Made by a program: the position numbers and the translations under genes
In this document: in pieces, positions 31,522-36,183 of the stretch
Numbering within the stretch: position 1 is the stretch's first letter
How the letters are laid out: each line of letters begins with the position of its first letter
The notes under the pieces: model-generated
Seen by the model: the letters and a program-made list of their open reading frames with translations, nothing else
Database searches by the model: none
What the model was told of the DNA's origin: nothing
Assembly: GCF_023195915.1 (NCBI RefSeq)
Contig: NZ_JALPRP010000001.1
Location: forward strand, 1,364,001 to 1,428,000
Direction: 5' to 3'
Origin: Methanoculleus sp. 7T
GTDB taxonomy: Archaea; Halobacteriota; Methanomicrobia; Methanomicrobiales; Methanoculleaceae
Length of the DNA stretch: 64,000 bases

Positions 31522-31803
31522 AGTCGCGAGGACGATTGATCGTTGCAATAACGGCAGTGATTGTAGGGTTCCAACAGAGAGGCGTGAGCCCGCTCCGTTC
31601 AACACATTTCACCTAGGGTTTGTCTACGCTCCCCACGAAGCCCGGATATAGCCAAGGTATAAATAGCGCGAAGGCACGTATCCCGCGTCCATCGCGCCTC
31701 ATGGGATTCAGGCTACCGTTCGTACAATTCGAGAGAATGCCGAATGGCAGCGCGATCCCGGCGGTTATTGGCATCGTCACGCAAGATTATCGAGGGCTGA
31801 CCG

Positions 31804-33555
31804 ATGATCGCCACATATGCCCTGAGAGTCGTATGCGTCTCCGCCCTTGCTCTCATCCTCTTTCTGGGTGGGGTTGCGGAGGGATCAGCCGTTGGTCCGG
31901 CGGCTGACAATGAGACGATGAGCAATCAATCCCGCTCCGTTCATCAGTTAGATTACGAGACTTCTGAAGAACCCCCTCCTCAGTCTAGTCTCTCCCTCTC
32001 TCCGAGTGTCGCAACGATGACCGTCGGCGACGCACCCCTGCAGTTCACGGCGACATACAACAATGCGGACTATTCCGGGGATGTTACCGAGTACTGCATC
32101 TGGTCCAGCAGCAACGAATCTGTCGGAACCATGAAGAAAGGGATATTTACCCCCATGGCTCCCGGCTATGCAGAAGTTAACGCCATTTATCGTCCGGATA
32201 TAGAACCCGGGACGCAGGCGGTTACGGCAACCGCATCGGTTACCGTCAATCCGCCGGCACGCAGGCTCACGACCATTACCGTACAACCCCCGTTTATCGC
32301 CCTTGATGTCGGCGAGACACGGAGGCTTGAAGCGACCTGCCTCGACGAGAACGACAACCCGCTTACGGATATTGCCGTTTCCTGGGAGAGCAGCGATGAT
32401 GCGGTTGCAACAGTCGATCCGGACGGCAACGTCGCCGGCGTTTCCGAGGGGTCGGCAGAGATTACCGCTTCTGCGGATGGGGTATCCGAATTCGCGGCCG
32501 TTCAGGTCAACCGCTCCCCTAGGGTGCCGACGACGATCAAGGTCTCTCCGCTGGAGACCAGCGTCGGCGTCGGAGGGACTCTGCAGCTGAACGCGACCTG
32601 CTTCGACCAGTACGGGGAGGTTATGCCCGGTGTTGTGGTGACGTGGTCGAGCAGCGATCCTGCGGTCGGATCCGTGGATTCCGCCGGGCTCTTCGATGCT
32701 CGTGCGGTAGGCACGACAGCCGTGACCGCATCGGCCGACGAGGCACAGGGATCGGCAACAATCAACGTGACCGAACCGCCCCTCAACGTGACCGAACCGG
32801 AGCCTGCATCCATTGTGGTCTCCCCATCGTCGACAACCCTCGGCGTCGGCGATACCATGCAGTTAGAGGCCACAGTCTACGGCCGGGATGGCCGCGAACT
32901 CTCCGGTCCCCCCGTATCCTGGACGTCGGGGAACGGGTCGGTGGGGACGATCGACGATAGTGGTGTCTTTACCGCGGGCGCAGAGGGGGAGAGCGTCGTG
33001 ACCGCCCGTGTTGCCGGAGTCGAGGGAACAGCGGTTATACGGGTCTCCCCCCGCGAACCCCCGGCCCCCCTCGCACGTATTGTGGTCTCGCCCGAGACCG
33101 TGACACTTGGAATCGGGGCGACCCACCAGTTTACTGCAACCTGCTACGACCGGAACGACCGGGTGGTGGAAGGCGTCGACGTGACGTGGGCAAGCAGCGA
33201 TGAGAGGATCGGTGTCGTGGATGCTGACGGTCTGTTCACCGCGAATAATACTACAGGTAATGCCACGGTCACCGCATCCGCCGAGGGCGTCGTCGGATCG
33301 GCGTCTGTGACGGTCGACGGAGGTACAATCGACCCGGTCCTGTTGTTGATCCTGGCCACGGTTGCGGGGGCAACCGCCTCGTATGCCATCCGGAGGTACC
33401 TGAAGGGGCGTCCACGCACCCGTGGCCAGAGGCATCTTCCTGTGCGCGTCGAGGTGCAGGGTGGTGTGGAAACCGCAAAAACGGCATCCGGACCGAGACT
33501 CGACGTGAATGTAGATGTCACCGGGGGTATCCTGAAAGGGGATGAAGAACGATGA
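31804..33555 (+). CDS. Surface protein with about five Ig-like repeats and a C-terminal anchor
   Basis: The 583-residue protein begins with a signal peptide (VVCVSALALILFLGGVAEGSA). About five Ig-like (BIG_2 type) repeats of roughly 85-90 residues follow, each with VSPxxxTLGVGDTxQLxAT and later TWSSSDxxVGTVD. A single membrane helix (PVLLLILATVAGATASYAI, about residue 515) is followed by a basic cytoplasmic tail near 50 residues. Sequons are abundant. GAGGG lies eight bases before ATG 31804. A TATA box (TATAAATA, 31659-31666) predicts a leader of about 115 bases. Its stop overlaps the next gene's ATG, so the tail and the unknown protein may work together. Confidence 0.85.
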   Translation: MIATYALRVVCVSALALILFLGGVAEGSAVGPAADNETMSNQSRSVHQLDYETSEEPPPQSSLSLSPSVATMTVGDAPLQFTATYNNADYSGDVTEYCIWSSSNESVGTMKKGIFTPMAPGYAEVNAIYRPDIEPGTQAVTATASVTVNPPARRLTTITVQPPFIALDVGETRRLEATCLDENDNPLTDIAVSWESSDDAVATVDPDGNVAGVSEGSAEITASADGVSEFAAVQVNRSPRVPTTIKVSPLETSVGVGGTLQLNATCFDQYGEVMPGVVVTWSSSDPAVGSVDSAGLFDARAVGTTAVTASADEAQGSATINVTEPPLNVTEPEPASIVVSPSSTTLGVGDTMQLEATVYGRDGRELSGPPVSWTSGNGSVGTIDDSGVFTAGAEGESVVTARVAGVEGTAVIRVSPREPPAPLARIVVSPETVTLGIGATHQFTATCYDRNDRVVEGVDVTWASSDERIGVVDADGLFTANNTTGNATVTASAEGVVGSASVTVDGGTIDPVLLLILATVAGATASYAIRRYLKGRPRTRGQRHLPVRVEVQGGVETAKTASGPRLDVNVDVTGGILKGDEER

Positions 33556-34163
33556 CGCAGGAAGCACTGCGGTGTAAAGGCCTTGAAGAGGCCCTGTTTG
33601 ACCATGAACTCGAGATGAATCTGACCGCTGCGATGGAGAAAAAAGCGGTGAAGGACTTCTCGGAGGCTGAAGGCTATAAGGAGTACGCGAAAGGGTCCGG
33701 CCAGACGGCTGAAGCTGCCAGGAAATCTGTGGTACGGAAGATTGCACAGACACTGACGGCTTATCTTGCGGAAGGCCTGATACAGGTGACCGTCGAGGAG
33801 ATGATGAAAGAGGATGAGTGCAGGGATGCGGTTCGGAAGAAGAAAGAGACGGCCGTTATCGCGAAATTCAGCAGAGATCTTCCCCCTTTCCGGGCCTATG
33901 TGGATGTGACGACGAAATGCGGGTGCATGGAGCTCACGAACATTCGCTACCTTTTTGAGGTACAGCCCAATGTCACCGTTCAGGATGCGAAGATCATGCT
34001 GCAGGACGACCAAGTGAAGAGCGTCTCGTTCGGCACGCTCGTCGCGAATCTCACGCTTAATCTCCTCCTTGGGGGTCAAAGCCTGAAGATCTGCTCCATC
34101 AAGGGAACCGTGGAGATGCCCGGGGCCATCAGTTTGGGATCAGGGAGCGTGAGCGGAGCGTAA
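33552..34163 (+). CDS. Unknown cytoplasmic protein coupled to the Ig-repeat surface gene
   Basis: This 203-residue protein has no signal or membrane helix. The first 95 residues are helical and charged (DHELEMNLTAAMEKKAVKDF, KIAQTLTAYLAEGLIQVTVE). The second part is beta-rich with CGCMELTNIRYLF and a Gly/Ser-rich end. Its ATG overlaps the preceding stop (ATGA), so it is made with the surface protein. A coiled-coil or membrane-associated scaffold that contacts the surface protein's basic tail is one possibility. I recognise no family and make no functional call. Confidence 0.7.
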   Translation: MTQEALRCKGLEEALFDHELEMNLTAAMEKKAVKDFSEAEGYKEYAKGSGQTAEAARKSVVRKIAQTLTAYLAEGLIQVTVEEMMKEDECRDAVRKKKETAVIAKFSRDLPPFRAYVDVTTKCGCMELTNIRYLFEVQPNVTVQDAKIMLQDDQVKSVSFGTLVANLTLNLLLGGQSLKICSIKGTVEMPGAISLGSGSVSGA

Positions 34164-34565
34164 CGCGGCTCTATCCGGAAAGGGCGAAGGTTTCACCTAA
34201 TGGAATATAGGGTAACATCCGGGACAATACATCTCCGGAAAATCAGACCTCCGTGCTCCTTCGATAAAACCGGCGGGAGTAGAAGAGTGCAACTCAGTGG
34301 ACGCCGGGGCGCCCCGGGTATGCCTTGCTCGGGCCCTGCCGTTCACGAGAGTTAAGCCGATCGATTAACATTCGTCGTCGCAAGTGTTTTAACTATCGAG
34401 TGCGATGACGTCCTCGAACGTTTCAGTAATTTCCTATCACAGCAATCCGGGAATTCTTTTCAATATCGGCCGCTCATGGACCGAACAGAGTCGGTTCAGT
34501 CATGTCCATTTCTGGCCGGCTATCCGTGGATCGGACAGCAGGCCGCAGTAAGATGAGGTGGAGTT
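34164..34565. other. Intergenic region upstream of the papain-like protease gene
   Basis: This 402-base stretch has no supported gene. TTTTAACTATC near 34387 could be a weak promoter. GAGGTGGAG at 34554-34562 is the ribosome site of the protease gene. No repeats were seen. Confidence 0.4.
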
Positions 34566-35489
34566 ATGTTGGGCTTCTACAAAAAGGCGTTCGATCGAAA
34601 GACCGGAGAGCAGTACGGCACAGGGTGGCTGCCGCCGTATCCGGATCTTCGGGACTACACAGAGAGGGATGCGGATATCCCGAAGATGGCCGGAAAACTG
34701 GGTATTACGTCCGGTCTGAAAGTTGAGTCGTTACCCTCCAGCGTGGACCTCAGGGAGTGGTTCTCACCCGTTGAGGACCAGTTGAACCTTGGATCCTGTA
34801 CGGCGCATGCGGCCGTCGGTATCGTCGAGTACTTCCAGAACCGGGCTTTTGACAAGTATATTAACGGATCGCGCCTGTATGTCTACAAAATGACCCGCAA
34901 CCTGATGGGGGTCACGGGAGACACGGGGGCATGGCTCCGGAACACGATGGGCGCTCTGGCGCTGTGCGGGGTGCCCCCCGAGAGATACTGGCCGTATACG
35001 GACAGCGCATCCGAATTCGACCTGGATCCGTCGCCGTTTTTGTGTTCGGTTGCAGCGAAATACGGGGCGGTCGATTACTTCTGCCATGACCCTCTGGGAG
35101 CCAATATGCCCGCCGGAGAGGTATTGTTCAGCGTTAAAAAATACCTGGCTGCCGGGATTCCCTCCATGTTCGGATTCTATGGGTTTCCCTCCTTTACGGC
35201 GGCGGATGTGAAGGGGGGCATCCCGATCCCTTGCTCCGGAGAGCGGGCGGAGTGGGGGCATGCCATCGTTGCAGCCGGGTACGATGATGCCATGGAGATT
35301 AAAAACTCTCGGTGCGGCAAAGTGACAAAAGGAGCGCTCCTCATCCGCAACTCGTGGGGAGAAGGTTGGGGAGCAGAGGGCTACGGATGGCTTCCCTACG
35401 ACTACATCCGCCACGGCCTTGCCACGGACTTCTGGTCCCTGATAAAGATGGACTGGATCGATACGGATAAGTTTGGAATTGAGGTTTGA
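34566..35489 (+). CDS. Papain-like (C1A) cysteine protease, no signal peptide
   Basis: The 307-residue protein has the full papain set: oxyanion Gln72 and catalytic Cys78 in DQLNLGSCTAHA, His232 in EWGHAIVAAGYDD, and Asn262 in LIRNSWGEGWG. The N-terminus (residues 1-60) contains WLPPYPDLRDYTERD, a pattern of cytoplasmic C1A homologues, and no signal peptide is visible. GAGGTGGAG precedes ATG 34566. It converges on a chagasin-like inhibitor gene only 19 bases beyond its stop. Substrate is unknown; with no export signal it probably acts inside the cell or is released by lysis. Transfer from bacteria is possible. Confidence 0.9.
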   Translation: MLGFYKKAFDRKTGEQYGTGWLPPYPDLRDYTERDADIPKMAGKLGITSGLKVESLPSSVDLREWFSPVEDQLNLGSCTAHAAVGIVEYFQNRAFDKYINGSRLYVYKMTRNLMGVTGDTGAWLRNTMGALALCGVPPERYWPYTDSASEFDLDPSPFLCSVAAKYGAVDYFCHDPLGANMPAGEVLFSVKKYLAAGIPSMFGFYGFPSFTAADVKGGIPIPCSGERAEWGHAIVAAGYDDAMEIKNSRCGKVTKGALLIRNSWGEGWGAEGYGWLPYDYIRHGLATDFWSLIKMDWIDTDKFGIEV

Positions 35490-35508
35490 ATTCGAGTTCC
35501 TTCCGCGG

Positions 35509-35823
35509 TTACCTGAGTTCGGCGACGAAAAACCATTCCAATTCTGTCTTTTTTTCCGGGCCTGCGTCCCATGGCCGCCTATAAACCCCGGTTATCTTTT
35601 GTTTCCCGCCCCTCACCGTTCTGAAGAGCCATGAGCGACGCCCGCCCGACCCGAGCGCCTTGCTTTTCATGCTGTATTTACTTTCGATCAGCTCAAGCCC
35701 GTCGGTGGCATCGATTGCCCACGAATACCCGGCCGCCGGGTTCTCGGCGAGTTCAAGTTTCACCTCCTCGCCGACGCTTATGGTATACGTTCTTCCACGG
35801 TCGTCTTCATCTAACAGCAGCAT
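35509..35823 (-). CDS. Chagasin-family cysteine protease inhibitor (I42)
   Basis: The 104-residue protein keeps the three loops that chagasin inserts into papain-like active sites: NPAAGYSW at 28-35 (usual NPTTGYxW), GSGG at 58-61 and RRPW at 82-85. Archaeal and bacterial I42 members inhibit C1A enzymes. ATG 35823 begins the recognisable domain; the frame extends further upstream but that part lacks likeness. No signal peptide is seen, matching its likely target, the signal-less papain-like protease encoded convergently at 34566-35489. The pairing is inference from motifs and position. Confidence 0.85.
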   Translation of the reverse strand: MLLLDEDDRGRTYTISVGEEVKLELAENPAAGYSWAIDATDGLELIESKYSMKSKALGSGGRRSWLFRTVRGGKQKITGVYRRPWDAGPEKKTELEWFFVAELR

Positions 35824-36183
35824 GTGAATGCACCCTGTCTCCCGGATCTTTCGCTTCTTGAACGCGTTGGAGTAGTCGCCGGATCCATTTATTCTTACCC
35901 ACGGGGCGACGCCGTCGCAACGCCGGGGGCCGCCCCCTCCTTTTAGGGGCCGTTCCGGTGGACTTGTCACGGTTCCCCCGTGGGAGGAGTCCTACGAGCG
36001 GCATATCAGGGACGACGAGGTGCGAGGTGGCCGTCTCTCACAGCCTACTGCAGGCGATCCGTCCCCCGTTGGGGGCGGCAGGGGAGTACCGGTTCGGCTG
36101 GTCCGGTGGAGGTCACGCGCCCGGAGCATCACCAGCGCTGCCGCCGGAATCAGGGAAAAAAAGGGACCGAACCTCCCCGGCAA
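35824..36183. other. Intergenic region without a supported gene
   Basis: This stretch lies between the inhibitor gene and the PFL gene stop. AATAAATGG-like sequence near 35885 (minus strand) may be the inhibitor gene's promoter. The rest is GC-rich, with no frame that has a start signal or known domain. Confidence 0.4.

Follow-up and report, generated by a model that had tools for sequence, protein, structure and literature searches.

Inhibitors of family I42 are widespread in bacteria and archaea, where their native targets are mostly unknown. Chagasin, a member of this family, spans the active-site cleft of C1A proteases with its loops L2, L4 and L6 and inhibits them reversibly, with Ki values ranging from pM to 100 nM (PMC7863939). 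Linkage of a protease gene with the gene for its inhibitor is already known in bacteria: staphopain and staphostatin (C47/I57), SpeB and Spi (C10), and the Bacteroides proteins Bfp and Bfi each combine a protease with a cytosolic inhibitor encoded by a linked gene (PMC3462683). A linked prokaryotic pair of a C1A protease and an I42 inhibitor was not found in the literature searched, and the open-access literature searched contained no paper on a methanogen chagasin or on C1-I42 gene linkage. We describe here a locus in a stretch of 64,000 nucleotides from Methanoculleus sp. 7T (referred to below as the window), in which one predicted C1A protease and one predicted cytosolic I42 inhibitor are encoded by genes that end 19 bases apart, making a clean, small and testable pair.

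Results

A papain-like protease gene and a chagasin-family gene converge in the window

The features of the two genes, in window coordinates, are as follows.

34566..35489, + strand: predicted C1A (xylellain-like) cysteine protease, 307 aa (PF00112, 3OIS, fold, catalytic residues)
34779-34781, + strand: codon CAG of Gln72 (oxyanion hole)
34797-34799, + strand: codon TGT of catalytic Cys78
35259-35261, + strand: codon CAT of catalytic His232, invariant in the alignment
35349-35351, + strand: codon AAC of catalytic Asn262, in the motif IRNSWG, where Trp264 is the equivalent of papain Trp177
35487-35489, + strand: stop codon TGA of the protease gene
35490..35508: gap of 19 bases between the two convergent genes
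35509-35511, - strand: stop codon of the inhibitor gene
35509..35823, - strand: predicted chagasin-family (I42) peptidase inhibitor, 104 aa (PF09394, amoebiasin-1, fold)
35569..35580, - strand: loop L6, RRPW, residues 82-85
35641..35652, - strand: loop L4, GSGG, residues 58-61
35725..35742, - strand: loop L2, NPAAGY, residues 28-33

Both genes carry a Shine-Dalgarno-like GGTG 5-7 nt upstream of the ATG, and both ORFs are genuine genes, chance being excluded. Their GC contents (57% for the protease gene and 56% for the inhibitor gene) mark neither as foreign.

The protease matches Pfam Peptidase_C1 with E=4.8e-11 and 43.6 bits against a cut-off of 20.7. Among solved structures, xylellain is the closest by sequence (E=2.6e-28) and also the top fold match of the structural model, which has a pLDDT of 81 and low confidence over residues 1-28. 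Gln72, Cys78, His232 and Asn262 stand in papain order and are conserved without exception in the 18 relatives aligned, in agreement with the full Cys78-His232-Asn262 set of the original prediction. Based on its sequence, we assign the protease to peptidase family C1A, with predicted peptidase activity, and the sequence and modelled fold together place it in the xylellain-like subgroup. No match to the I29 propeptide was detected, and the first 45 residues contain no hydrophobic stretch, which argues that the protein has no signal peptide, as had been proposed. Related proteases likewise lack both the signal peptide and an I29-type propeptide; these absences set the subgroup apart but do not exclude it from C1A. 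The window protease is the sole C1 protease of the source genome. Xylellain is held in check by its own N-terminal segment, and by analogy the window protease may restrain itself in the same way.

The gene on the opposite strand does begin its stop codon 19 bases past that of the protease gene, as first described. Its product matches Pfam Inhibitor_I42 with E=1.3e-20 and 73.9 bits against a cut-off of 27.2 and is related to amoebiasin-1 (5e-12) and chagasin, and its model (mean pLDDT 91.6) resembles EhICP2 and chagasin with TM scores of 0.87 and 0.86, respectively. All three loops of the I42 pattern (L2 NPxxGY/F, L4 GxGG, L6 RPW) are present, so that the loops recognized in the original prediction are now joined by the Pfam match and the chagasin fold. 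We therefore place the protein in family I42 with a predicted chagasin topology, and inhibition of a protease is predicted from this placement. No hydrophobic stretch was found in the inhibitor, even when the ORF was extended back to the preceding stop, which indicates that neither the short nor the extended form has a signal peptide; this part of the earlier description also held.

The L2 loop differs from the usual NPTTGY/F in having alanine at both threonine positions, and it is thus the natural equivalent of chagasin T31A/T32A. This chagasin variant retains inhibitory activity, with Ki values from pM to nM, but its effect depends on the enzyme: it acts slightly more tightly on cathepsin L (Ki 1.8 vs 7.3 pM) and 140-fold more weakly on cruzipain (1065 vs 7.6 pM) (PMC2607524). 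Given this match, the window inhibitor is predicted to be still functional but choosy. Trp264, the expected partner of L6, is kept in the protease.

The source genome holds two I42 genes, the window copy and one with a lipoprotein-type signal (LMAGC box).

L042:6309-6809, - strand: lipoprotein-type I42, of a kind that occurs across the genus

Since this other copy is of the exported lipoprotein type, the window copy is taken to be the cytosolic one. The closest relatives of the window I42 are only about 40-45% identical to it, and a tree of I42 proteins, with about 100 alignment columns, is not strong enough for dating the window copy. In a 40-genome set of the family, I42 was present in 26 of 26 good genomes and any C1 protease in only 4. 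In the genus, therefore, I42 in general shows no tie to C1 proteases, and the short window I42 is an exception. The lipoprotein-type I42 is found genus-wide, yet C1 proteases are missing from most of these genomes; it must accordingly have some other target, perhaps foreign proteases.

The pair lies in an insert that is absent from a sister species

The two genes are part of an insert with the following features.

31539..36034: insert, about 4.5 kb long, that separates the PiT transporter and DUF711 genes and carries the genes for a Big2 protein, a 203-aa protein, the protease and the inhibitor
31804..33555, + strand: protein with Big_2 repeats and a membrane segment at its C-terminus; 60% identical to its counterpart in G013, which is likewise syntenic with the protease
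33552..34163, + strand: 203-aa protein that matches no known family and whose gene overlaps the stop of the Big2 gene; 85% identical to its counterpart in G013, again syntenic with the protease

In the sister species G018 (L311), the genes for the PiT phosphate transporter and the DUF711 protein are convergent and lie 270 bases apart. On the left the window aligns to this junction as far as 31538, and on the right the alignment resumes at 36035; 62 bases lie between these points in G018, and the insert is absent there. The PiT-DUF711 junction is empty or filled differently in sister species (L311, L318, L313, L317); because its contents differ between them, it looks like a variable site.

The nearest relative, G013, has counterparts of the Big2, 203-aa and protease genes (60%, 85% and 83% identical, respectively), close to the same DUF711 gene. 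VOC and GNAT genes occupy the place where the window has the inhibitor, so that this relative carries the protease without an adjacent I42. A lack of co-conservation, which the original prediction had named as grounds for refuting it, is thus seen within the genus, where the protease was found in two sampled genomes (the window's and G013) and the pair in one. The Big2 and 203-aa proteins were considered as partners of the protease and rejected, as, among the loci compared, the 203-aa gene adjoins the protease gene in the two sister species only; the 203-aa family was seen at no other of these loci.

At the right edge of the insert, some 70 noncoding bases (35963-36033) are 78-91% conserved in seven other genomes of the genus. 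This stretch occurs in one or two copies per genome and, in at least four genomes, no more than about 7 kb away from the DUF711 gene; its position in G013 is beyond the Big2-203aa-protease block, on the far side. It had no Rfam match.

G013 also holds a different C1 protease of 378 aa without a signal peptide, together with a cytosolic I42 of 107 aa that is encoded two genes downstream on the same strand.

L039:5061-7065, - strand: 378-aa C1 protease, 163-aa protein and 107-aa I42 of G013

The 163-aa protein shares the C-terminal segment of the 378-aa protease. The window pair and this arrangement show that two species of one genus have cytosolic C1-I42 linkages formed with different proteases.

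Linkage of the protease and I42 genes recurs in distant lineages

The protease subfamily was found in 21 of 393 Halobacteriota genomes, a count that includes a broken copy in G359 (Methanosarcina group; L065), in which several stop codons interrupt the gene and no I42 adjoins it. Six of the 21 carriers have an I42 within 1 kb of the protease, measured as the gap between matched regions; the gaps are 59 bases in the window, 57 in G365, 67 in G404, 253 in G259, 464 in G409 and 759 in G368. From the I42 gene number and the genome sizes, 0.03 linked cases would be expected (Poisson P about 1e-12, or 3e-8 with the three Methanosarcina counted once). Among the best 80 matches in other genomes, which are 57-67% identical and come from many phyla, an I42 lies no more than 4 kb away in five cases (three Methanosarcina, a Bipolaricaulota MAG and Desulfonema magnum). 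Two of these Methanosarcina loci are judged to be the G259 and G368 genomes again, and the linked loci beyond the Halobacteriota set are therefore three (Bipolaricaulota, Desulfonema and a further Methanosarcina). In the tree built from 82 proteases, the linkage label requires seven changes, at least five of which are forced by well-supported branches, and the sister of the window protease has no linked I42. Based on these results, we conclude that the linkage of protease and I42 is meaningful, far above chance and recurrent in distant lineages. Phylum-wide co-occurrence of C1 and I42 was 124/150 vs 58/243, figures that are not corrected for kinship.

In all linked cases except the window, the inhibitor gene lies downstream of the protease gene on the same strand; the window alone has the convergent layout. 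The L6 loop also differs, being W-R-x-W-E-G in the Methanosarcina, Bipolaricaulota and G013 I42s and RRPW in the window. Given that the partner inhibitors are of differing L6 type, repeated recruitment of I42 fits better than inheritance of the two genes as a unit. The long ORF reading of the linked inhibitors of G409 and Desulfonema includes a hydrophobic stretch, and the cell location of these two proteins hinges on the choice of start codon. Clustering of neighbours at 160 loci gave no further recurrent neighbour of the protease, and a conserved operon around it was rejected on this ground.

Many carriers of the protease have no detectable I42

No I42 was detected in 26 of 40 other protease-carrying genomes, many of which are MAGs; detection used Pfam and home-made profiles, which divergent copies can escape. 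These I42-less carriers include the isolates Pelosinus propionicus, Pelotalea chapellei and Sporomusa acidovorans. I42 is likewise absent from an archaeal carrier, G088, that is 94% complete and has an intact protease. The closest orthologue of the window protease, that of G013 (83% identical and syntenic), also stands without an adjacent I42. These results indicate that carriage of the protease does not require the inhibitor and that the protease is tolerated without I42 in many cells. In such carriers, the protease would either be restrained in another way, by its N-terminal segment, by its substrate specificity or by another inhibitor, or be harmless. The patchy distribution of the protease agrees with the report that the short C1A proteases of methanogens were often acquired from bacteria (PMC10380794).

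More than 300 relatives of the protease were present in IMG/VR contigs (32-53% identity among the best 80; L156-L235), and weakly similar proteases occur in two large phage records, Burkholderia phage FLC9 and LR756511. A phage origin of the pair was rejected, as no I42 was found within 5 kb at 80 viral loci and none in the phage records. A plasmid link was also dismissed, the sole plasmid match being a single 30%-identical I42, and so was a defence system, since PADLOC gave no match for the protease, the inhibitor, the 203-aa protein or the Big2 protein.

Discussion

We consider it probable, at roughly 0.6, that the window I42 is an optional cytosolic brake on the neighbouring, mobile papain-like protease. 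The intact loops, the precedent for the L2 variant and the retained Trp264 point to a brake on the neighbour, and the large share of protease relatives without the inhibitor suggests that this brake is optional rather than an obligatory antidote.

The original prediction had read the two genes as a cytoplasmic protease/antidote pair. What is supported of this is that protease and inhibitor are both cytoplasmic and belong to matching families, with a linkage that recurs and a sole C1 target in the cell; an antidote in the strict sense is not supported, given the unpaired 83% orthologue and the 26 of 40 carriers without detectable I42. In an addiction-like pair, the protease would kill the cell unless the inhibitor were present, and the intact active site, the missing signal peptide, the gene linkage and the precedent of bacterial cysteine proteases guarded by cytosolic Spi and staphostatins (PMC3462683) are all in keeping with such a system. 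However, the syntenic orthologue without an adjacent I42, the I42-less isolates and the nearly complete G088 argue against a toxin-antitoxin reading of such pairs, although inhibitors of other families could be hidden in these carriers. The window genes, moreover, are not co-transcribed, and the pair departs from type II toxin-antitoxin systems in that the protease often occurs without I42 and the genes lie on opposite strands and form no operon. We regard a lethal protease with its antidote as improbable here, and the inhibitor is probably not an antidote in the strict sense.

One could also envisage that the genes are chance neighbours in a cargo insert and that the inhibitor, acquired independently, targets foreign or other clan CA proteases instead of its neighbour. 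The insert site varies between species, G013 has VOC and GNAT genes in the place of the I42, I42 in the genus otherwise occurs without C1 proteases, and P. aeruginosa-type ICPs are known that have no obvious C1 targets. Yet independent linkage recurs in distant taxa, the cell offers a single C1 target, and an inhibitor without a signal peptide should not encounter external proteases; chance proximity seems to us rather unlikely, if less so than an addiction-like pair. A chaperone role has been proposed for staphostatin (cited in PMC3462683), and the one-to-one linkage downstream of the protease in other lineages would suit a chaperone, or an inhibitor that keeps the protease as a latent complex freed on stress. 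In the many carriers without I42, however, the protease must fold independently of it, and the window inhibitor is not co-transcribed with the protease, so that we give this role as little credence as that of an antidote.

Returning to the optional brake, we infer binding, inhibition and a physiological role of the inhibitor from the folds, catalytic residues, inhibitory loops, absent export signals and tight recurrent linkage given by sequence and structure prediction. The natural target would be the adjoining intracellular protease, whose active-site cleft would be plugged reversibly by three loops in a chagasin-like manner, with NPAAGY over Cys78, GSGG and RRPW along the cleft, and RRPW near Trp264. 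Separate control of the two genes from opposite strands is possible, as originally suggested; because they are transcribed separately, the ratio of inhibitor to protease would determine how much free protease is present in the cytosol. The brake would thus have been added to a mobile protease that is also carried without it.

A broader reading, which we put forward tentatively and at less than even odds, is that prokaryotes repeatedly assemble linked pairs of a mobile, signal-less C1A protease and a signal-less I42, and that a basic job of chagasin-type inhibitors, in both archaea and protozoa, is to control the papain-like proteases in the cytosol of their own cell; the window would then hold such a pair under separate promoters. 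The scattered linked cases provide further pairs for tests of specificity.

The known systems each share part of this arrangement. Xylellain of Xylella fastidiosa has the same catalytic set and a similar length, with about 27% identity to the window protease in structural alignment, but no chagasin partner of xylellain was found in the literature searched, unlike the window protease with its adjacent I42. Chagasin and amoebiasin (ICP, I42), acting on cruzipain or other endogenous C1A proteases, have in common with the window pair the fold, the three loops and a C1A target in the same cell; they differ in L2, which is NPTTGF/Y rather than NPAAGY, and linkage of their genes to those of their targets is not described in the literature searched, whereas the window genes are linked. 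The intracellular subtilisin Isp1 of Bacillus and its inhibitor IPI (BsuPI) combine an intracellular protease with an Ig-like intracellular inhibitor, in archaea too, but the protease is a serine protease, the inhibitor topology is unlike that of chagasin, and the two genes were reported not to lie close together (PMC3901451). In staphopain-staphostatin, SpeB-Spi and Bfp-Bfi, as in the window, the gene of a papain-fold protease adjoins that of an inhibitor, which in those systems guards the cell's own proteins (PMC3462683). Their proteases are exported, however, their genes are co-transcribed and their inhibitor folds are unrelated to I42, whereas the window genes are convergent and lack export signals; the exported protease, co-transcription and lipocalin-like inhibitor that define the staphopain-staphostatin type are all absent. 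By analogy, the best reading is that the window inhibitor would act on its neighbour as staphostatin does on staphopain, but in a pair built from C1A and I42.
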